Both the position numbers and the translations under genes were made by a program. From assembly GCF_007000325.2 (NCBI RefSeq), contig NZ_CP117267.1:2480001-2544000 (forward strand): 64,000 nucleotides of DNA, read 5' to 3'. How positions within the stretch are numbered: the stretch's first letter is position 1; every line of letters starts with the position of its first letter. Source of the stretch: Rhizobium rhododendri (GTDB lineage Bacteria > Pseudomonadota > Alphaproteobacteria > Rhizobiales > Rhizobiaceae). The notes under the pieces were generated by a model. That model searched no databases. It was not told the origin of the DNA and worked only from the letters and a program-made list of their open reading frames with translations. Shown in pieces: positions 19-60,050 of this stretch.

Positions 19-53
19 GACGCCGCGCAAGAAATTGCGCGGCGTCTTCTTTT
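19..53 (+). terminator. Rho-independent terminator of the gene left of the window
   Basis: A perfect 12-bp stem (19-30 pairs with 35-46) closes on a GAAA tetraloop and is followed by TTCTTTT at 47-53. It lies before any coding region of this window, so it probably ends a plus-strand gene that stops to the left. Confidence 0.8.
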
Positions 54-194
54 GTAATGCCGGCTGCAAATTCCGTTCAAGGCTAGGCAAAGGCGAGCGC
101 CAGCTCGACGCAAGCTAGTCTAGGTAGCAAGACGAAAGCGCCTTGTGCGCCGGCTCAAACGATGGCCGCCAGGCCGCATCTTCGTAGGATCGTC

Positions 195-2243
195 ATGACC
201 ATCAATGTCGCATCGGCCACGGCTCAGCTCCCCCTGCTCACTAATGCGCTCGAGAAGGCGCGGCAACGACAGCTTGCTCTCGGCGATCTGTTCAACATCG
301 CAACTATCCTTGGCAACGGCGGGCATCAGGCCCAGGCGGTCGAACTCTACAAGGGCTGGATCGCCTATAACGACGGCAATCCGCTGCTGCACCTCGCCTA
401 TTTCAATTATGCGGTCGCGGCCAACGTGATGGGCGATCGGGCGGGCGCAATCAATGCCTTTCGCGCGTGCCTCAAGCTCGATCCGCAGTTCGGCCCGGCG
501 CATATCAACCTTGGCCGCGTCCTCGAGGACAGCGGACTGATAAACCCCGCCGTCGAGCAGTGGCGTTCCTATGCCGAGATCACTTCCGATATCACGGCCG
601 ACCGTCTCGGCCACCGGCTGATGACCCTCAAGCACATCGGCCGCGTGCTGGAAGGTGCCGGCAGGATGGAGGAAGCGGAAAAGGTCCTGTGGCAGGCCAT
701 GGAGCTTCAGCCCGAAAAGACCGACGCAGGCCAGCATTGGACATCGCTGCGTCAGCGCCAGTGCAAGTGGCCGGTGCTGGTCCCTTCGGAGCATGTCTCG
801 CTTCGCCAGTTGCTGGATGCCGTCTCCCCCCTGACGCTAGGCTGCTACGCCGACGACCCGCTGTTCCAGCTTGCCAAGGCGCATCGCTACAACAAGTCGC
901 TGATCGGGCAGCCCGATCTCGACGAGGCCACTGCCAACACCGTTCCGCGCCACAAAACAGGAACCGGCCAGCGTCTGCGCGTCGGCTATGTCTCGTCGGA
1001 CCTGCGCGACCACGCAGTCGGCTTTGCCCTCAGAGAAGTGCTGGAGTTGCATGACAAGAGCAGCGTCGAGGTCTTCGCCTACTATTGCGGCGACCGGCGC
1101 ACCAACGATGCAACGCAGGAGCGCATCAGGAACGCTGTCGATTGCTGGCGCGATATCGCCGAAATGAGCGACGCAGATGCCGCAAAGCTCATCGCCAAGG
1201 ACAAGATCGACATCCTGATCGACGTCAACGGCTACACCAAGCTCGCACGCACCAAGATTTTCGCCTATCGCCCGGCCCCGGTGGTCGTCAATTTCTGCGG
1301 CTATCCCGGCTCGCTGGCCAGCCCGTTCCACCAGTATATCATCGCCGACGAGCACATCATTCCGCCCGCCAACGAGATCTACTATACGGAAAAAGTGCTG
1401 CGTATCGCCTGCAACCAGCCTATCGACCGCAAGCGCCAGATCGACGCGCGCCCGACCCGCGCAGAGGCCGGCCTGCCCGAGGATGCCTTCGTCTATGCCT
1501 GCTTCAACGGCATGCAGAAGATCACCGCCAACTGTTTCGACCGCTGGATGACGATACTGTCGGAAACGCCCGGCAGCGTGCTTTGGCTGCTTGCCGACGA
1601 CGACACGGTCAACCAGCGGCTTCGCGAAATAGCCGCGAAAAGAGGCGTCGATGCCGACCGCATCATCTTCGCAGCAAAAGCGCCCAATCCCAAGCACCTC
1701 GCGCGTATCGGACTGGCGGACCTGTTCCTCGATACCTTCCCCTACGGTGCCCATTCGACAGCGGCCGATGCCATTACCGTCGGACTGCCGATCCTCACCG
1801 TCTCCGGCAAGACATTTGCTTCGCGCTTCTGCGGCAGCATCGTCGCCGCAGCCGGGTTGCCCGAACTGATCTGCGGCGGCCCGGACGAGTATGTCCGCCA
1901 GGCGATAGCCTTTGCGCATGATCGGGAAAGCCTGCAGGATGTCAGGGACAGGCTGCAGAGCCAGCGCGAAACGAGCGTGCTGCGCGACATCCCCGGCCTT
2001 GCACGCCGTCTCGAGCAACTGTTCTGGGAGATGCAGGACGAAGCCGAACGCGGCGAAACTCCCGTGCCGGATATGCGCAACCTCGAAATCTATTATGAAA
2101 TTGGCGCCGACATTGTCCTGACCGACGTCGAGTTCGAGGACGAGATCGCCTACCGCAACCGATACCTCGAAAATCTCGGCCAGTTGAACGCCAACACACC
2201 CATTCCGTTCGATCGCCGTTTGTGGACCGAGCCCGCCGAGTAG
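195..2243 (+). CDS. SPINDLY-type O-linked N-acetylglucosamine transferase with N-terminal TPRs
   Basis: 682 residues. The N-terminal 200 residues are helical TPR-like repeats (for example AFRACLKLDPQFGPAHINLG). From about residue 255 the sequence matches the GT41/SPINDLY catalytic half: RVGYVSSDLRDHAVGF near residue 265-275 with the conserved His, then DVNGYT, FCGYPGS, FNGMQKITANCFDRW, WLLADDD and HSTAADAITVGLPILTVSG. In the family this enzyme moves a sugar from a UDP-sugar (classically UDP-GlcNAc) or, in some members, GDP-fucose to Ser/Thr of proteins. The acceptor here is unknown. An in-frame ATG lies at 162, but ATG 195 is preferred because GTAGGA lies just upstream (185-190) and the extra 11 residues look non-conserved. 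A DUF3431-like gene follows 114 bp later on the same strand and may act with it. Confidence 0.85.
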   Translation: MTINVASATAQLPLLTNALEKARQRQLALGDLFNIATILGNGGHQAQAVELYKGWIAYNDGNPLLHLAYFNYAVAANVMGDRAGAINAFRACLKLDPQFGPAHINLGRVLEDSGLINPAVEQWRSYAEITSDITADRLGHRLMTLKHIGRVLEGAGRMEEAEKVLWQAMELQPEKTDAGQHWTSLRQRQCKWPVLVPSEHVSLRQLLDAVSPLTLGCYADDPLFQLAKAHRYNKSLIGQPDLDEATANTVPRHKTGTGQRLRVGYVSSDLRDHAVGFALREVLELHDKSSVEVFAYYCGDRRTNDATQERIRNAVDCWRDIAEMSDADAAKLIAKDKIDILIDVNGYTKLARTKIFAYRPAPVVVNFCGYPGSLASPFHQYIIADEHIIPPANEIYYTEKVLRIACNQPIDRKRQIDARPTRAEAGLPEDAFVYACFNGMQKITANCFDRWMTILSETPGSVLWLLADDDTVNQRLREIAAKRGVDADRIIFAAKAPNPKHLARIGLADLFLDTFPYGAHSTAADAITVGLPILTVSGKTFASRFCGSIVAAAGLPELICGGPDEYVRQAIAFAHDRESLQDVRDRLQSQRETSVLRDIPGLARRLEQLFWEMQDEAERGETPVPDMRNLEIYYEIGADIVLTDVEFEDEIAYRNRYLENLGQLNANTPIPFDRRLWTEPAE

Positions 2244-2357
2244 CAGCCATCAGGAGAGGCGCACCGCCGGCCCCCTCCCTCGACACCTGGCGCCCCGTGA
2301 TTGAACTACACTCTCGTCCAGAGCGCGTGATCGAGAGGCTTAGAGGAGGCATCGCTC

Positions 2358-3134
2358 GTGAATTCCGTGATTTTGGCACGATACAACGAATCCCTCGACT
2401 GGATTCATCAAATCCCGGATGATTTCGACATCATCATCTACAACAAGGGCGAGAAGATCGTCGCGCCCGAGGTGCTCGATCGCGCCTTCCGCATCATCGA
2501 TCGACCGAATGTCGGTCGCGAATCGGAGACCTACCTTCATCACATGATGACGCAGGTGGGCAACGACCAGGACTTCACCGTCTATGCGCAGGCGGACCCG
2601 CACGCCCATAGCCCCGACTTCATCGAGCTTCTAAAGAACTGGCGCGACTGGGATGACGTGCAGCCCTTGTCGTGGTGCTGGATCGCCGAGAACAATATTC
2701 CGCCGATAGCCCTGCTGGACGACTACCAGGCCCAGCTCGGTGGACGGTTGCGCGTAAGGCCGGAGCGTTTTTCACTAACGGCCTGGGGCGCTCCCGAATT
2801 CGTCGATGCGGGCGCCAACGGCATGGGCATGGTCTATCGCATCCTCCACGGCCTTCCGGACGGCGGCAATATCGCAGCCCACTTCCTCAGGCACTGCAAA
2901 CTCGATCACATCGCCGAAAAGGCCGACCGCCACTCTCTCGGCGTATTTTCTTATGGCGCCATTTTCGCAGCTCGGAATGCGCGCGTAGCGGCTATTCCGC
3001 CGATCTCGCTGAGGCTGGCGATCGACTTCTCAACTGCGGGCGTCGTTGCCCACGGCTACATTCTCGAGCGGATGTGGCTGCATATGCTGGGCGTAGATTT
3101 CATCCTGCCGAAAAACCAGCCGTCGAAAATATAG
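2358..3134 (+). CDS. DUF3431-like protein, possibly glycan-related
   Basis: 258 residues, soluble, no signal peptide seen. It starts at GTG 2358 behind a strong GAGGAGG at 2343-2349. The N-terminal motifs VILARYNESLDWI, IIIYNKGE and NVGRESETYLHHM are those I associate with DUF3431, a family of unknown biochemical role found in fungi and bacteria. QADPHAHSPDFIELL follows near residue 75. The ARYNE opening and the acidic QADPH stretch recall nucleotide-sugar enzymes, but no glycosyltransferase fold is proven. Its position 3' of the SPINDLY-type transferase suggests a role in sugar transfer; this is inference from context only. Confidence 0.6.
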   Translation: MNSVILARYNESLDWIHQIPDDFDIIIYNKGEKIVAPEVLDRAFRIIDRPNVGRESETYLHHMMTQVGNDQDFTVYAQADPHAHSPDFIELLKNWRDWDDVQPLSWCWIAENNIPPIALLDDYQAQLGGRLRVRPERFSLTAWGAPEFVDAGANGMGMVYRILHGLPDGGNIAAHFLRHCKLDHIAEKADRHSLGVFSYGAIFAARNARVAAIPPISLRLAIDFSTAGVVAHGYILERMWLHMLGVDFILPKNQPSKI

Positions 3135-3286
3135 CAATCTGGACTGCAAAGTCGGCGCAAAACGCGCCGCCGCCGGCTCTGGCTGGCAACGCTTTTGGAG
3201 GTCCGGTTACTCGACAAATGTAACGCCTGCGCTTGACGATCGTCACCAGGTCGCCAAATAGCTGTTACATCAGATCGAGGAATAAT

Positions 3287-3535
3287 ATGACAGCTGACCT
3301 GGACCAGGCCATGACCGAATTCGTCCGCACGGCCGCAATGCACGTGCTTGAGATCGATGCGGAAGATCGGGACGACTATATCAACGGTCTACACGAAAGC
3401 TGGGTCAGCATCGGTCTGCAGTCGGGCATGGACGACGCTGCAGCCCATGAAAACGCCGATCTCCTGGCCGACAGCACCCGTGAAATGGTATCCGCGATCG
3501 AAAAGAGCGGAGGCGCAGGCGGTGGCACCGCCTGA
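3287..3535 (+). CDS. Small acidic hypothetical protein
   Basis: 82 residues, starting at ATG 3287 with GAGGA at 3277-3281. The protein is acidic and mostly helical (MTADLDQAMTEFVRTAAMHV, then EIDAEDRDDYINGLHESWVS) with a flexible Gly-rich tail. There is no signal peptide, membrane segment or recognised motif. An in-frame TTG at 3233 could extend it but lacks a ribosome binding site. I do not recognise the family. Reading-frame length and a good start region support that it is real. Confidence 0.55.
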   Translation: MTADLDQAMTEFVRTAAMHVLEIDAEDRDDYINGLHESWVSIGLQSGMDDAAAHENADLLADSTREMVSAIEKSGGAGGGTA

Positions 3536-3586
3536 ACCAGGTTGACGTTGTAGCCACTCTCATCGTTTTATCGAGCGGCGCACCGC

Positions 3587-3898
3587 TTATCTATCGATGA
3601 AGTGGTCGAGCCCGAGCGTGATCGGCAGTGCGGAGTAGACACCGCGGTCGATGAAATTGTAACGGGCAAGGCAATTCCGCATGGCGACCGTATGGATGTA
3701 GCTGTGCACATCGCTGGAGCCGCGGTCGGGCCGGCTTGCTTCAACTGCGCAATAGTCCGACGCCCTGTCGAATTTTGCCGCGAGAGTTGGGGTCTGGTCG
3801 ACGGGACCGCCAAAATAGTACTGATATTCGCCCGGGCTTGCAGCGGCCGAAACGCAAGCAAGACTTAAGGCAAGTCCCAATCCAAGCATAATCTTCAT
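3587..3898 (-). CDS. Small secreted hypothetical protein
   Basis: 103 residues from ATG 3898, with the purine-rich AGAGAGAG just upstream. The N-terminus MKIMLGLGLALSLACVSAAA is a clear Sec signal peptide, with cleavage predicted after SAAA before SPGEYQYYF. The mature part has two cysteines (DYCAVEA and RNCLARY), which could form a disulfide in the periplasm. The mature sequence shows no enzyme motif. An upstream in-frame codon at 3931 would put 11 charged residues before the signal peptide, so the internal start is preferred. It is divergent from the membrane peptide at 4022. Confidence 0.65.
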   Translation of the reverse strand: MKIMLGLGLALSLACVSAAASPGEYQYYFGGPVDQTPTLAAKFDRASDYCAVEASRPDRGSSDVHSYIHTVAMRNCLARYNFIDRGVYSALPITLGLDHFIDR

Positions 3899-6126: not shown

Positions 6127-6502
6127 GACTGCCTCCTCCGCAATCCGGTTGCGGGATGCAACCTGAGGTTCAACGTCGACCTGTTGATTTGGTTCCCGCT
6201 CCGCTCTTGACCACGACGGCAATCTCCTTACCTATGAGGCTCTGCGGATCAAGGACATCTGCCGCGGATAACACTGGTGCCGGGCCCCTCTGGCGAGAGT
6301 TTTTACGGCGCTCTCGTGATGTCGGTACCGCCTGCAGACAAGCCGGCGGATTTATCCCCATGAACAAGCTGACCATGCTTTCCTCGCATGCCGTCGATGG
6401 CAAGCGACGTCTACGTGCATTTCGCCTTCCCGCGTTCCCAGCCCTACAGGTGCGCCCATGACGCGCCCGACATCAGGCTCAGGAACTGGCCAAGGATCAG
6501 GC
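6127..6502 (+). other. Long leader/intergenic region before the DUF475 gene
   Basis: 376 bp with no convincing long gene. It contains a small hairpin (CGAGAG/CTCTCG near 6293-6320) and a 33-codon reading frame at 6360-6461. The TGA of that frame overlaps the ATG at 6458 that would start the longer form of the next protein. TerC/DUF475-related genes in other bacteria can carry a manganese riboswitch (yybP-ykoY), but I could not match its conserved core here. Confidence 0.4.
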
Positions 6503-36605: not shown

Positions 36606-36904
36606 TCGCACTTACTCCTTGGGGAAGAGCTCTTCCAATGGGCCATACAAATCGCAAATCGAAAACCGACACAACGGTTCTTTTGCGACGCATTTGACGC
36701 AGGTGTCGACACGGCGGGAATTGGGGAGGGATTGCGGGGGACTTGCGAGCGGATAGGCTACAGTTTACGAACCATGAACTTGTCTTTAACTGCGATATTA
36801 CGGCCAGAAACTGCCAGCACCATCATGGATGGATTGCCTACACGATGTGAGGTAATGAGTTCCTTCACCATGCGTGCTAAGACAACCTTGATTTGGAGTC
36901 GATC
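36606..36904. other. Junction region between soxB and the AT-rich DUF5131/TcmP pair
   Basis: About 300 bp. The soxB-proximal half should hold the sox promoter (no clear box seen). From about 36758 to 36900 the minus strand reads as an open 45-codon stretch (VVLARMVKELITSHRVGNPS and on to KDKFMVRKL, stop at 36758). Its composition is that of real protein, but it has no start or binding site; it may be the 3' remnant of a gene cut by the acquisition of the neighbouring pair. Base composition becomes AT-richer here. Confidence 0.35.
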
Positions 36905-37654
36905 ATGGCAGAAACTACCATAGAATGGACAGACGCAACTTGGAACCCAATAGCAGGTTGCACGATAATGAGCGCTGGATGCACAAATTGCTACGCCATG
37001 CGGATGGCAGCGCGTCTGGAAGCGATGGGTGTTGAAAAATATCAAGGCCTAACTCGGAAATCAGGCGGCCGAGCAAAATGGACTGGTGCACTCTATCTTG
37101 ATGAGAACGCTCTCCAAATACCGGCGTCCTGGTCTCGTCCACGGAATGTATTCGTCAACTCGATGTCTGACTTATTTCACCCCGACGTGCCCGCCAGCTT
37201 TGTTGGCAAAGTCTGGTCGGTCATGGCGGAAACACCTCGGCACACATACCAAATTCTGACCAAGCGCCCTGACAGGATGGCGAGCATTCTGCGAAACGAC
37301 TTCCCTGTTCTACCAAACGTTTGGTTGGGTACCAGCGTAGAGGACGGGCGCGTCACTCATCGCCTAGATGACTTACGCTTAGTCCCTGCTGCCCTACGTT
37401 TCGTCTCCTTCGAGCCGCTCATCGGGTCTGTATCAGCAGGACATCTGACGGGAATTCAGTGGGCAATAGTAGGAGGTGAATCCGGGCCAAACGCTCGTCC
37501 AATGGATTCCGTTTGGATCGACGAAATCTTCGATATGTGCACCGATTCAGATACAACATTTTTCTTTAAACAATGGGGCGGATACAATAAGAAAAAAAAC
37601 GGTCGGTCGTATCGTGGCCGCACCTGGGACGGCATGCCATCAATTGCGGCTTAA
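36905..37654 (+). CDS. DUF5131 / phage Gp37-Gp68 family three-Cys-motif protein
   Basis: 249 residues from ATG 36905, with GGAG at 36895-36898. Three cysteines Cys19, Cys26 and Cys29 (C-x6-C-x2-C, in NPIAGCTIMSAGCTNCYAMR) resemble the iron-sulfur motif of radical SAM enzymes. Other family blocks are NVFVNSMSDLFHPDV, YQILTKRPDRM, WLGTSVEDGR, RFVSFEPLIG, WAIVGGESGPNARPM and FFFKQWGGYNKK. The family is found on phages and mobile DNA and commonly next to TcmP; its reaction is unknown. GC content is clearly lower than flanking genes. It converges on tcmP so closely that the two stop codons share TTAA. Confidence 0.88.
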   Translation: MAETTIEWTDATWNPIAGCTIMSAGCTNCYAMRMAARLEAMGVEKYQGLTRKSGGRAKWTGALYLDENALQIPASWSRPRNVFVNSMSDLFHPDVPASFVGKVWSVMAETPRHTYQILTKRPDRMASILRNDFPVLPNVWLGTSVEDGRVTHRLDDLRLVPAALRFVSFEPLIGSVSAGHLTGIQWAIVGGESGPNARPMDSVWIDEIFDMCTDSDTTFFFKQWGGYNKKKNGRSYRGRTWDGMPSIAA

Positions 37655-38802
37655 GCACGCTCGATGCTGTCTTCTTCGTCCGGGACTTTTCGTCTTGGAT
37701 TCTTCAGCCGCCAAGTTTCTTTTATTATCCCACTCCTTCCCAACTCTGCGCAAATCTGCTTAGCATCAGTCTTGCGCAGCATGTATTGGTCGAGCATCAT
37801 TGGCCAGATTTCAGAAAACGGTTTCGGACAGCTTGGCAATTGGTCACGAAGCCAGCCTTTCGCGTCCTCTTTGATATCGCTAATCTGGGCATCAATAGAA
37901 AGTCCTGCCAGCGAGGCGGAAATGTCTGGGCCGAACAAATCGGGCTGTCCCGTCCTGTTCTCGCGGTTGATCTCCCTCGCTGCAGCTCTCCGCATACCGT
38001 GACCCTTTAGAGCCTGGTATTCAACTTGCCGATAAGCGGCGAGTCCCTCGACGCTCCGTGTCCCGTACACAATGTGGAAATGTGTTCGGTCAGAAATTTT
38101 CTCGATTGGGGTGTTTAGGACGTATTTGAAATTTCCTGCCTTCCAAAACTGCTCACGAAACAGGGTAAGCAGGGCTTCTTCTCGCAACAACTGAGATAGG
38201 TCGAGACGTGTCTTCCAGTTCGCGCCGAGGATACCGTCAAATGAACTTAATGTGGTAGGGTCGGACGATGCGGTAAACCGACTGACGAAGTCGTACATAA
38301 AGTTAAGCAATACTTCGCCTTGCGAGTGCTCGAAAATTGGCTTTACCTTTGCGAACCCGTACCCAGTCCATCCCGTGGGATCGATGAATGTCAGCGCGAA
38401 GGAGTTCGCCATGGTATTTTGAATTTGAGGGACGGCGTCTTCAAACTTTCCGTTGAAAGTCTCGATGAAGAACCCATTGGCGGGGTCGTGATGGGGAGCG
38501 ACCGCAGCCTGCAGCTTAGCAAAAGAACCAGTGTTCTCCTCGACAAAAAAACACCTGATGATTGGCCGCTTTCCTGTGGCACGGACTTTTGCCTGAACGT
38601 CCTTTAGAACCTGAATTGCAATCATGAATGACGAATCGGAGTGGTCCGGTGTTCTTGACTTCCAAGGGCCTGAGAATCCATCAATATAAGAGAGCGTCAC
38701 CCATCCGCCTTGCAGCGTCTTAAAAGCGAGCGTCTGCAGGTACCGTCGGAGGATGAAGTGCTTAGCCTCGGTCTGCTCTCGATCCTGATATACCGGTATC
38801 AT
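37651..38802 (-). CDS. tcmP: Three-Cys-motif partner protein TcmP
   Basis: 383 residues from ATG 38802, with GGGAGGA 8 bp upstream. The name-giving association is with DUF5131, the convergent neighbour. Its core looks like a Rossmann methyltransferase: LSYIDGFSGPW near residue 40 (motif I-like), IIRCFFVEEN near 85, LTFIDPTGWTGYGF near 134 and EVLLNFMYDFVSRF near 160. The C-terminal half is helical with many charged residues. No activity is established. AT-rich codon use and position suggest joint transfer with DUF5131. A 9-bp inverted repeat lies upstream (38827-38879). Confidence 0.85.
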   Translation of the reverse strand: MIPVYQDREQTEAKHFILRRYLQTLAFKTLQGGWVTLSYIDGFSGPWKSRTPDHSDSSFMIAIQVLKDVQAKVRATGKRPIIRCFFVEENTGSFAKLQAAVAPHHDPANGFFIETFNGKFEDAVPQIQNTMANSFALTFIDPTGWTGYGFAKVKPIFEHSQGEVLLNFMYDFVSRFTASSDPTTLSSFDGILGANWKTRLDLSQLLREEALLTLFREQFWKAGNFKYVLNTPIEKISDRTHFHIVYGTRSVEGLAAYRQVEYQALKGHGMRRAAAREINRENRTGQPDLFGPDISASLAGLSIDAQISDIKEDAKGWLRDQLPSCPKPFSEIWPMMLDQYMLRKTDAKQICAELGRSGIIKETWRLKNPRRKVPDEEDSIERA

Positions 38803-39056
38803 GCGGAAATCCTCCCAAAATACATTTTGCACAACTTAACGCTGAGTTGCAGCTAAGCCAACGAGCCTTTGTTGTGCAATGGTATTTTTCCCGCTTCCGG
38901 ACCATTCTGCCTATTTCCTAGGGAGATGAACCAGGAAATCATGGAGTCAATATCGGCCTTTCAAACTCGGCGCGCGTCACATGGACGGGAAGTTTTAACG
39001 TTGATAGCTGGTACTGATGTTTTAAATGCAGAATCCCCATTTTCTCCCGACCCCCA
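38803..39056. other. Non-coding DNA between tcmP and the first rpsU-leader copy
   Basis: Apart from the inverted repeat above, no gene is seen. The AT-rich character ends near 39000, where a C-rich pyrimidine tract begins. This marks the right-hand edge of the low-GC island. Confidence 0.4.
38827..38879. promoter_or_regulatory. Inverted repeat upstream of tcmP
   Basis: TTGCACAAC (38827-38835) is exactly inverted as GTTGTGCAA (38871-38879), with 35 bp between. It is 25-77 bp before the tcmP start, in a non-coding region. It could be two half-sites for a regulator or the arms of a looped structure. Confidence 0.3.
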
Positions 39057-39233
39057 CCCCTCCCCCCTCATCTCAACTCCCACCCCCGATCTGCGACCCC
39101 CACGACCAGTCGCCCGGCCACAAGCCGGGCGGGCGACACACTTACCGTTACGGTCGGTGACTGGGATCGACAGGTTGGCGGGGTTCAATCGAACCGGGAA
39201 ACGGTGTTCCCGTGCAGGCATTTGTCAGCGACA
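39057..39233 (+). repeat. rpsU-leader direct repeat, copy A, with a 7-codon rpsU stub
   Basis: This 177-bp segment aligns end to end with 41393-41568. The last 82 bp (39152-39233) match with about nine differences, including GGTCGGTGACTGGG and CAATCGAACCGGG. It closes with GTG CAG GCA TTT GTC AGC GAC, reading VQAFVSD, very close to the S21 start VQVLVRD, after which similarity stops. It is therefore read as the rpsU upstream region plus the first codons, cut off at about 39233. The 3' end of the AraC gene lies 27 bp further on. Confidence 0.6.
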
Positions 39234-39259
39234 TCCCGGCTTCCCAACACTTACGCCCC

Positions 39260-40135
39260 CTATACCCGCAGCGCGCCGGGGGTCAGGCCATCTTCCCGGC
39301 GCATGATGGCCGTGAGATGGCTTTGGCTGGAGAAGCCGCAGTTGAGCGCGATCTCGGCCAGCGGCAGCCGTCCATTGACGATCAGTGCGCGGGCCTGATC
39401 GAGGCGTAGGCGGGTGAAATACTGGTGCGGGCTCGTCCCCGTCCGGCGCCGGAAAGAGCGCAGCATCTGGCTTGACGAGAGCTCGACCAGCGCGGCCAGC
39501 GCGTCGAGCCGGACACCGTCTGTAAGATGCGCCTGCATATGGTCGCGCACCTGTCGGAACTGCCGGTCCGACAGGCCGCCCAGATCCTTCTGAGGCCGAG
39601 CCACGCCATATTGCCGGATAAGGTGGATGCCGAGCAGGTTGAGGAGCGAATCAAGCTCGAGGCTCGCCATTGTCCCGTGCGTGCCCGAACGCAGCTCGTC
39701 GCGCAGCATGCCGCCGAGCAGCCCGACACGGCGGTCGACGACCGGCAATGCGTCCGCGACGACGGTGGCAGCCGGCAGATCGAGGTCGGACTGGGCGAGG
39801 TCATCGAGCCACTTCTGCGACAGCGAGAACGCCGCCACCTCCTTGGGCTCATGCCAGCGCGCCCAGTAGTCCGCCCCTGCCGGCACGATCTCGCAGCACC
39901 CGCTAGCAGCCGAAGCGGTGCGGATCCGCGTGCCGCCGAGGCGCGACTCGCGGTTGCTGAAGGGCTTGAAGGACAAAAGCACGAGATGATGGGGGATCGA
40001 CTGGCTGATCTCGCCGGCGTTCCGCCGGTTCCACGCCGCCGTCCCGAAATCCGACCGGACAAGCCTGCCCCAGTTCGGCACCGGTGTGTCGGTAGTGGCA
40101 ACATGGGGGGCTTCGGGTGGAATGGCATCTGACAT
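39260..40135 (-). CDS. AraC family transcriptional regulator
   Basis: 291 residues from ATG 40135. The C-terminal 100 residues contain the two helix-turn-helix units: LDALAALVELSSSQMLRSFR with RTGTSPHQYFTRLRLDQARA, and LAEIALNCGFSSQSHLTAIM, ending LTPGALRV. The N-terminal part (AWNRRNAGEISQSIPHHLVL) is a cupin-like effector region related to the AraC_binding_2 type. It is divergent from a short-chain dehydrogenase whose start is 107 bp away, so it probably controls that gene. The pair is bracketed by two rpsU-leader copies. Confidence 0.88.
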   Translation of the reverse strand: MSDAIPPEAPHVATTDTPVPNWGRLVRSDFGTAAWNRRNAGEISQSIPHHLVLLSFKPFSNRESRLGGTRIRTASAASGCCEIVPAGADYWARWHEPKEVAAFSLSQKWLDDLAQSDLDLPAATVVADALPVVDRRVGLLGGMLRDELRSGTHGTMASLELDSLLNLLGIHLIRQYGVARPQKDLGGLSDRQFRQVRDHMQAHLTDGVRLDALAALVELSSSQMLRSFRRRTGTSPHQYFTRLRLDQARALIVNGRLPLAEIALNCGFSSQSHLTAIMRREDGLTPGALRV

Positions 40136-41016: not shown

Positions 41017-41392
41017 ACCCATGACCAACCGGCGTCCGTCGCAAGCGGGCGCCGATCCCACATCGAAAAGCGCCGATGAACCATTCGAGCGGGCCATCGG
41101 CTGCCTCGATTTCGGGCGGCACCGGACAGAGGCACCGCCTCGGCCTTGTCGCTCTTCGGCAACCACGAACCGGCCGCGCTCAGCGGCTCCGACCAGTTCG
41201 TCCGGGCGCCCATGTGGCCCCTCATCCTATGACCATATGCGTCCCGCCGATAGAAAGCGGCTTTCGCATCCGTCGTACGAGCTCAGTTGCCTTGACCAGG
41301 CCCTGTCCCGGCGCCGAAGCATACGACATAAAGCGGGCATGTCCGTCCCGAGTTATGACGTCCGGCACCTCTCCTTTTTCCCGGCCTCCCCC
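41017..41392. other. Non-coding DNA after the SDR gene
   Basis: Several open frames cross this stretch, but none has a binding site, and their residue composition (Arg/Pro/Ser-rich) is that of GC-rich shadow frames. One short frame ending LSGSDQFVRAPMWPLIL near 41228 looks slightly more protein-like and may be a remnant. Nothing else was recognised. Confidence 0.4.
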
Positions 41393-41568
41393 ATCCCCTC
41401 ATCTAGACTTCCACCCCCCAATCTGCTATCGCCCACGGCCAATTGCCCTGTCTCAGGCTGGGCTAGCCACACAATTTTGCCTTCAGGGTCGGTGACTGGG
41501 ACCGGCTGGTTGGCGGGGTGCAATCGAACCGGGGAACGGTGTTCTCGTGCAGGTACTTGTCCGCGACA
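41393..41568 (+). repeat. rpsU-leader direct repeat, copy B
   Basis: The second copy of the 177-bp segment at 39057-39233, in the same orientation and about 2.3 kb away. It starts with the same pyrimidine-rich tract (CCCCTCATCT and CCACCCCC), passes through a degenerate hairpin region, and ends in the well-conserved 82-bp block leading to GTG CAG GTA CTT GTC CGC GAC. It runs directly into the truncated rpsU reading frame. Confidence 0.6.
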
Positions 41569-59639: not shown

Positions 59640-60050
59640 CCCTTCAATACAGGCTCCGGCGGTCAGACCGGAGGACAAAGGGCATACGCGAATCCACGCT
59701 AGGACCCAGCCGGTGGAGACCCCGGATCCTTGACGAACGCACGATGCTCGATCAGTGAACCAACGCCACAGGATGGCATAGGTTCGGCTTTGTCTGCCTT
59801 GGATTGGAGGTTTCCCTACCGCACTTCCGGCAATGATGGTGTGCCTCTTCAGTAACCCCGGCTGATGGAAAGCCGGAAGAGAACAAAAAGGCCCGCACCG
59901 TCGTTGCTTCAGATGTCCTCGCATTTCTCGGAAGGCCGAGATAGCGACTGGAGGGGTTAATTCCAGGTACCTTACCGTATCCTCACCAATTAGAGGACCA
60001 GCGGACACCCATGGGCACGTGCGACTTTGGGCTGACCGGGAGATAAGAAC
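59640..60050 (-). ncRNA. Structured 5' leader of odc2, probable speF element
   Basis: This region of about 410 nt upstream of the decarboxylase gene has no coding sequence but contains several hairpins on the minus strand, such as CCGGCT/AGCCGG at 59858-59876, followed (3' to 5' in plus coordinates) by a T-rich run (59881-59894 as AAAAAGG on plus). A conserved leader called speF is known upstream of alpha-proteobacterial ornithine decarboxylase genes and has about this length. Position, length and structure fit; I could not align it to the model. The outer limits are approximate. The remaining 60051-60277 holds the promoter regions of this gene and of the divergent lysR gene. Confidence 0.5.

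Follow-up and report, generated by a model that had tools for sequence, protein, structure and literature searches.

A low-GC gene pair beside soxB

The stretch of DNA analysed here (the window) comprises 64,000 nucleotides of the Rhizobium rhododendri contig NZ_CP117267.1 and carries two convergent genes, encoding a three-Cys-motif protein of the DUF5131 family and its partner TcmP. The DUF5131 gene occupies positions 36905–37654 of the forward strand and encodes 249 amino acids from an ATG start. On the reverse strand, the open frame of tcmP extends from a GTG codon (37651–38832, 393 amino acids), but the ATG at 38802 is the likelier start, since it is accompanied by a GGGAGGA ribosome-site-like sequence and since 381–383 amino acids is the usual length in the closest relatives; we therefore place the gene at 37651–38802 (383 amino acids). 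The two stop codons share a TTAA at 37651–37654, as a preliminary description of this DNA had proposed, so that the 3' ends overlap by 4 bp.

When GC content was averaged over 500-base segments between 33 and 43 kb, values of 0.50–0.55 were obtained for the island and 0.58–0.67 outside it. The lowest-GC 2.1-kb stretch of the whole window begins at 36751 (0.509, against a mean of 0.607 and a standard deviation of 0.026), and GC at third codon positions is 0.51 in the DUF5131 gene and 0.57 in tcmP, compared with 0.78–0.82 in five neighbouring genes. The AT-rich character described previously is thus evident, but the sharp edges are not found throughout: the stretch delimited by genome comparison (see below) reaches 39260, and its final ~220 bp are not AT-rich. 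Similarly, soxB is indeed the left neighbour of the pair, but on the right the expected TPR gene is not immediate, being preceded by what look like genes for an AraC-type regulator and an SDR protein (neighbour names, including sox and TPR, were assigned by eye or taken from the preliminary description, without a profile search).

Upstream of tcmP lies a 9-bp inverted repeat, TTGCACAAC...GTTGTGCAA (38827–38879), whose arms have centres 44 bp apart, or approximately four helical turns. It is a possible operator and is missing from all seven relatives with which the window was compared. By eye, relatives have common promoter-like blocks upstream of each gene; the window copy lacks these and has the inverted repeat instead. 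Scans for promoters and terminators gave counts no higher than in shuffled sequence, and RNA of the 3' junction was predicted to fold no better than shuffles (z-scores of −1.0 and −0.7).

Family assignment and predicted folds

The family identities that had been read from the letters alone were confirmed by profile searches. DUF5131 matches PF07505 over the full model (positions 1–243 of 243; E 4.3e-92, 308.5 bits against a gathering score of 28.9). Its cysteines, C19-x6-C26-x2-C29, do not vary among 57 aligned sequences and, as candidate ligands of a 4Fe-4S cluster, follow strand 11–13 of the predicted structure; among 76 distinct DUF5131 open reading frames (ORFs), 73 have the C-x6-C-x2-C motif, one has x7 in place of x6 and two are fragments. 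The predicted structure agrees with the radical-SAM-like (SAM, S-adenosylmethionine) character suggested earlier and has a radical SAM fold most like that of spore photoproduct lyase (SPL). SPL is only 11–13% identical to DUF5131 and has ~340 residues. Its canonical motif is CX3CX2C, and the CX6CX2C spacing of DUF5131 rules out ordinary membership of the SPL family.

TcmP matches the NCBIfam family TIGR04474 (TcmP, partner of three-Cys-motif proteins) above its curated cut-off (E 2.9e-36, 125.7 bits against 53; model positions 1–258 of 263). The name of this family records co-occurrence only and its title gives no reaction. In keeping with the methyltransferase-like motifs noted previously, the predicted structure has a class I (Rossmann-like) methyltransferase fold, with the RNA base methyltransferases RlmJ and Trm1 as best structural matches. 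A winged helix-turn-helix (wHTH) profile matched about half of the TcmPs tested; in the window copy the match is weak and falls in the C-terminal region. Motif IV reads D[PQ]xG in 57 of 62 aligned TcmPs, switching between DPxG and DQxG, whereas adenine-N6 methyltransferases of the RlmJ type have (D/N)PP(Y/F). No DPPY/F was present in any of the 62, which rules out an RlmJ-type adenine-N6 enzyme, and the RlmJ Pfam model gave a weak match in one of 35 TcmPs (E 0.0024). In Trm1, motif IV is DPFG. Motif I is GxG in most TcmPs and GPW in the clade of the window copy and in some neighbours, so that the second glycine, an ordinary feature of class I methyltransferases, is absent from this clade.

Distribution and mobility

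In the genus, TcmP is present in 16 of 148 genomes and absent from 132, as would be expected if, as the preliminary description implied, the pair had been acquired; DUF5131 is found in 33 (32 over cut-off). DNA of the region matches somewhere in all 148 genomes, and among the matches listed nearly all cover soxB. Presence/absence at the soxB-side interval was observed directly in genome G145, which is 93–95% identical to the window on both flanks and has 125 bp in place of the 2,521 bp at 36740–39260. The empty site rests on this genome; G064, of the same species, cannot be scored at this place, as it has no close soxB (best identity 67%) and its contig C1 starts at the base matching window position 39135, reflecting either a deletion or an assembly break. 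In G137, a pair with 72% DNA identity lies ~0.7 Mb from the soxB of that genome.

On comparison with eight further loci of this type (on plasmids, on chromosomes or on a metagenome contig), DNA similarity spans approximately the interval from one start codon to the other, and the match to a more distant locus (L111) is split into two pieces inside the same limits. Genes flanking the pair on six annotated plasmids differ, short shared pieces excepted. Because similarity ends at about the start codons and the flanking genes differ, these comparisons indicate that the mobile unit is the gene pair itself. No tRNA gene was found in the window, and inspection by eye, without profile searches of the neighbours, revealed neither an ORF for a transposase or integrase nor a duplicated target at the island edges. 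A ~190-bp direct repeat (39041–39233 and 41384–41568, 79% identical) flanks the araC-like and SDR genes, and two copies were found in the genome. G145 has only the right-hand copy, which implies that the left one either arrived together with DNA at the island edge or took the place of such DNA.

In Proteobacteria, DUF5131–TcmP pairs were found on chromosomes, on plasmids and in phages; Gordonia phages carry them as well, and haloarchaeal plasmids carry TcmP. With the window TcmP as query, a single locus (L072) was recovered from the genome contigs and no relative from the viral contigs or the phage collection. One further pair (L094 of G257, 28–3793) is situated between genes that by eye resemble those for a prohead protease and an HK97 capsid protein, and probably lies in a prophage.

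TcmP is exchanged beside a near-unchanged DUF5131

The most informative result of the analysis is partner swapping. We compared 59 pairs, after removal of ten rows (two overlapping-locus duplicates, one fragment and one contig-edge case, three extra TcmPs without their own DUF5131, two TcmPs of one plasmid with a 179-residue DUF5131 frame, and one pair separated by a 791-bp gap); the frame used for the L003 TcmP begins with ~90 extra residues that derive from out-of-frame reading of DUF5131, which makes residues 1–90 of this query meaningless. In 1,711 comparisons, the median identity of DUF5131 was 52% and that of TcmP 18%, with only a weak rank correlation between the two (0.17). The window DUF5131 is itself 85% identical to that of G033, whose TcmP, likewise convergent, is only 20% identical.

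The clearest case comes from the Gordonia phages Pytheas, ThankyouJordi, BaxterFox and Fairfaxidum, in which the DUF5131s are 92–98% identical and the TcmPs 20–48%. In each of the four, the integrase is followed by HTH/metalloprotease-type genes, DUF5131, the convergent TcmP and the immunity repressor, which in Pytheas is separated from TcmP by one additional gene. Their TcmPs were confirmed by TIGR04474; the DUF5131 of BaxterFox is unannotated but its frame is open. Pytheas and ThankyouJordi share a segment of 2,854 bp with 94.6% identity, which starts shortly before the integrase and ends 19 bp short of the DUF5131 stop codon; beyond it there is no similarity until the repressor gene. Divergence alone can hardly explain this pattern, which instead suggests that DUF5131 stays in place and that new TcmPs attach at the tail-to-tail junction.

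A similar boundary was seen on comparing ten loci with the TcmP type of the window (clade A) with eight loci, including one phage, whose TcmP is of a shorter type (clade B). In all 80 comparisons between the clades, DNA similarity stops 12–73 nt before the DUF5131 stop codon. In the window, the junction corresponds to the last 16 bases of the DUF5131 gene (37639–37654, forward strand): similarity to clade-B pairs stops at the left edge of this segment or up to ~46 bases further left. Within clade A, similarity continues for more than 500 nt into TcmP in 36 of 45 comparisons. We did not find partner swapping described in the portion of the open-licence literature covered, where DUF5131 and TcmP appear only in tables, candidate lists and correlations.

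TcmP is accompanied by DUF5131, but not the reverse

DUF5131 is present in every genome that has a TcmP over cut-off, that is in 16 of 16 genomes of the genus and in 28 of 28 in a class sample of 367 genomes (the genome of the window is counted in both sets). DUF5131 occurs without TcmP in 17 of the 33 genus genomes and 23 of the 51 class-sample genomes that carry it. The phage collection yielded 159 records with DUF5131, and TcmP in at least eight records of seven phages, plus one partial match; phage pairs were recognised from DUF5131 matches and annotated neighbours, and the phage TcmPs were then used as queries. A divergent TcmP (from L094) recovered one unannotated phage record, with 64% of the query covered, and the JY39 TcmP gave no match in the viral contigs.

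Two TcmPs share one DUF5131 at some loci, for example in G106 and on S. meliloti pSymA. On pSymA (L114, 10275–11201) and on R. rhizogenes pC6.5b (L116, 11708–12484), a second, differently typed TcmP lies beside the pair without a DUF5131 of its own; that of pC6.5b adjoins a DEAD/DEAH helicase gene. The S. meliloti TcmP SMa2243, which would be one or the other of the two on pSymA, is tabulated with the hna helicase SMa2245 in the accessible part of one report (PMC12445080). In G035 (L070, 6323–12956), a DUF5131 without TcmP overlaps a GHKL-ATPase-like ORF in its start region, with nucleotidyltransferase-like and AbiEi-like ORFs nearby (all named by eye), perhaps representing another type of partner for DUF5131.

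Convergent layout recurs in the family

The convergent arrangement had been considered odd for partner genes, a view that the wider sample does not support. Among the 59 pairs, 25 are convergent, 28 are in tandem with DUF5131 first, six are in tandem with TcmP first and none is divergent; as the sample includes chosen plasmid and phage matches, the proportion of 25 in 59 does not estimate a population frequency. The layout is convergent in 10 of 16 genus genomes and in 4 of 28 class-sample genomes. The 3' ends overlap by 4–68 bp in 24 of the 25 convergent pairs, the remaining pair having a 6-bp gap, although the pairs are related and these overlaps are not 24 independent events. As a baseline, 4 of 35 other convergent neighbours overlap in the annotated loci, three of the four being the same integrase/HTH junction of Gordonia phages; this count was made by hand, the PLSDB gene tables being incomplete and L114 lacking annotation. 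Several tandem pairs are also tightly coupled, with overlaps of 1 or 4 bp. Five layout changes were counted on the TcmP tree, at least four of them forced by well-supported branches, and five on the DUF5131 tree, three of them so forced; long branches leave the exact numbers unsure. Convergence thus recurs across the family and is not an oddity of the locus in the window.

Association with defence

Both proteins match the PADLOC candidate systems PDC-M30 and PDC-M41, in which TcmP corresponds to component A and DUF5131 to component B. DUF5131 scores 335 bits with M41B and 309 bits with M30B, TcmP scores 60.6 bits with M30A, and one PDC-M30A model matches 27 of 35 collected TcmPs at E 1e-5 or better. 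Judged from gene positions, the A and B components are adjacent in the window, in genes overlapping by 4 bp. In the part of their description that was available, these candidates are listed by genomic embedding and partner swapping is not mentioned. The possibility of a defence system had been raised in the preliminary description, and these matches, together with the position of the pair near the immunity repressor of four temperate phages, support it. In addition, AbiE-type, restriction and DEAD/DEAH-helicase genes lie near several pairs (an observation made without a control), and the accessible text of one study describes PDC-M30 as prevalent in phage-resistant P. aeruginosa strains (PMC10855318). 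Taken with carriage on plasmids and phages, this evidence suggests a defence role for DUF5131–TcmP.

There is a precedent for the genomic setting in genes 43 and 44 of the Gordonia phage CarolAnn, likewise a two-gene prophage module, with proven defence activity and co-expression with the immunity repressor (PMC6426606). In the sections of that paper available, the pair is called RexAB-like and includes a membrane protein; its members are not DUF5131 and TcmP.

Elsewhere in the window, Rfam matches were obtained for a terC RNA (6272–6334, forward strand), a speF leader (59726–59878, reverse strand) and an ar45 sRNA (59887–60032, reverse strand).

Discussion

Comparison of loci shows a two-gene cassette that is mobile, in which TcmP depends on DUF5131 in one direction and is swapped beside a near-unchanged DUF5131, and both proteins have recognisable predicted folds. 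The dependence of TcmP, its swapping and the SPL-like fold of DUF5131 would best fit a variable, self-targeting base modifier (TcmP) and a conserved enzyme acting on the same base (DUF5131). TcmP would bind SAM, recognise its own target and modify a base there (both its wHTH region and its sequence are variable), and DUF5131, as an SPL-like radical SAM enzyme, would act upon that base. We tentatively propose that the pair is a mobile nucleic-acid-acting module for phage defence, addiction or both, in which one enzyme is constant and its targeting partner interchangeable, the two working as antidote and writer: TcmP would install a harmful modification that DUF5131 would reverse in the host, and the lone DUF5131s of phages could be a form of counter-defence. 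Such an order would account for the presence of DUF5131 in every genome with a clear TcmP, for the fit of one DUF5131 with very different TcmPs (the lesion being recognised, not the protein) and for the many phages that have DUF5131 without a recognised TcmP. Only the dependence pattern fits a toxin–antitoxin system, for example of the DarTG kind, in which one protein marks DNA and the other removes the mark. The pair would not be a member of DarTG, and the likeness is one of proposed logic. The more specific version, in which a near-invariant SPL-like enzyme reverses the lesion in self, the self-targeting modifier is exchanged at the tail-to-tail junction and lone phage DUF5131s act in counter-defence, is doubtful when all its parts are taken together.

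Sequential modification is also possible, and the data separate it poorly from the writer/antidote order, which we favour. DUF5131 would alter a base by radical chemistry and TcmP would then methylate or otherwise alter it, giving a product on invading or host nucleic acid that blocks phage replication or translation. The adjacency of two SAM-type folds, the requirement of TcmP for DUF5131 but not vice versa and the tight coupling of several tandem pairs are all compatible with this, yet a fixed two-step pathway should conserve the second active site, and in TcmP both motif IV (DPxG or DQxG) and motif I (GxG or GPW) vary; the product, moreover, is not known. Protective modification of the carrier's own rRNA or tRNA, conferring resistance of translation to a toxin, an antibiotic or phage takeover, has a model in enzymes of the Cfr/Erm type. 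We consider it improbable here, since swapping and fast change of TcmP are ill-suited to a universally conserved RNA target, and the wHTH matches suggest DNA. Still less probable is a viperin-like defence in which DUF5131 makes a modified nucleotide, TcmP alters it further and phage polymerases are poisoned: SPL scores higher in all six entries compared (12.6–12.8), TcmP is most like RNA-acting methyltransferases, and half of the TcmPs tested have a wHTH match. That the two genes simply travel together without a joint function is very improbable. Each gene is indeed found apart from the other, as lone DUF5131s are common, a few extra TcmPs have no DUF5131 of their own and weak TcmP-like matches occur in six genomes without DUF5131; against this, the co-occurrence above cut-off is complete in both genome sets, and adjacency persists through three gene orders and through partner swaps.

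Several observations weigh against the writer/antidote proposal. The activities of both proteins are predicted from sequence and fold, and radical SAM enzymes are not known to undo simple methylation of bases. By Foldseek alone, DUF5131 has no match below E 0.001 (MiaB 0.024, SPL 0.027), and, judging by its D[PQ]xG and GPW motifs, TcmP may not be an ordinary methyltransferase. Within clade B, similarity extends more than 500 nt into TcmP in only 7 of 28 comparisons (median end +4), so the loss of similarity at the junction may there reflect in part fast divergence of TcmP and not replacement. The six class genomes just mentioned have weak or partial TcmP matches below cut-off, and the lone DUF5131s of the genus, often longer (324–472 amino acids), need not be counter-antidotes. 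Convergent genes do not provide co-expression of a toxin and its antidote. As regards defence, the neighbours of the window copy look like metabolic genes and not a defence island, the PDC label is guilt by embedding, and two other PDC systems gave no defence in their native host, according to the available part of one study (PMC12409345).

The families PF07505 and TIGR04474 and the candidate pair PDC-M30/M41 were already known, and neither protein has an assigned reaction in the literature searched, as far as the sources were accessible. What the present analysis adds is the constant/variable architecture with exchange at the convergent, overlapping junction, the assignment of an SPL-like fold and the one-way dependence. 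The natural pairs of two Gordonia phages, with DUF5131s 98% identical and TcmPs 25% identical in the same slot, provide a handle with which to separate the role of each protein. Partner swapping of this sort is to be expected in an immune system. Should the writer/eraser reading prove right, a radical SAM enzyme would serve as an immune antidote, an unusual chemistry for phage defence.

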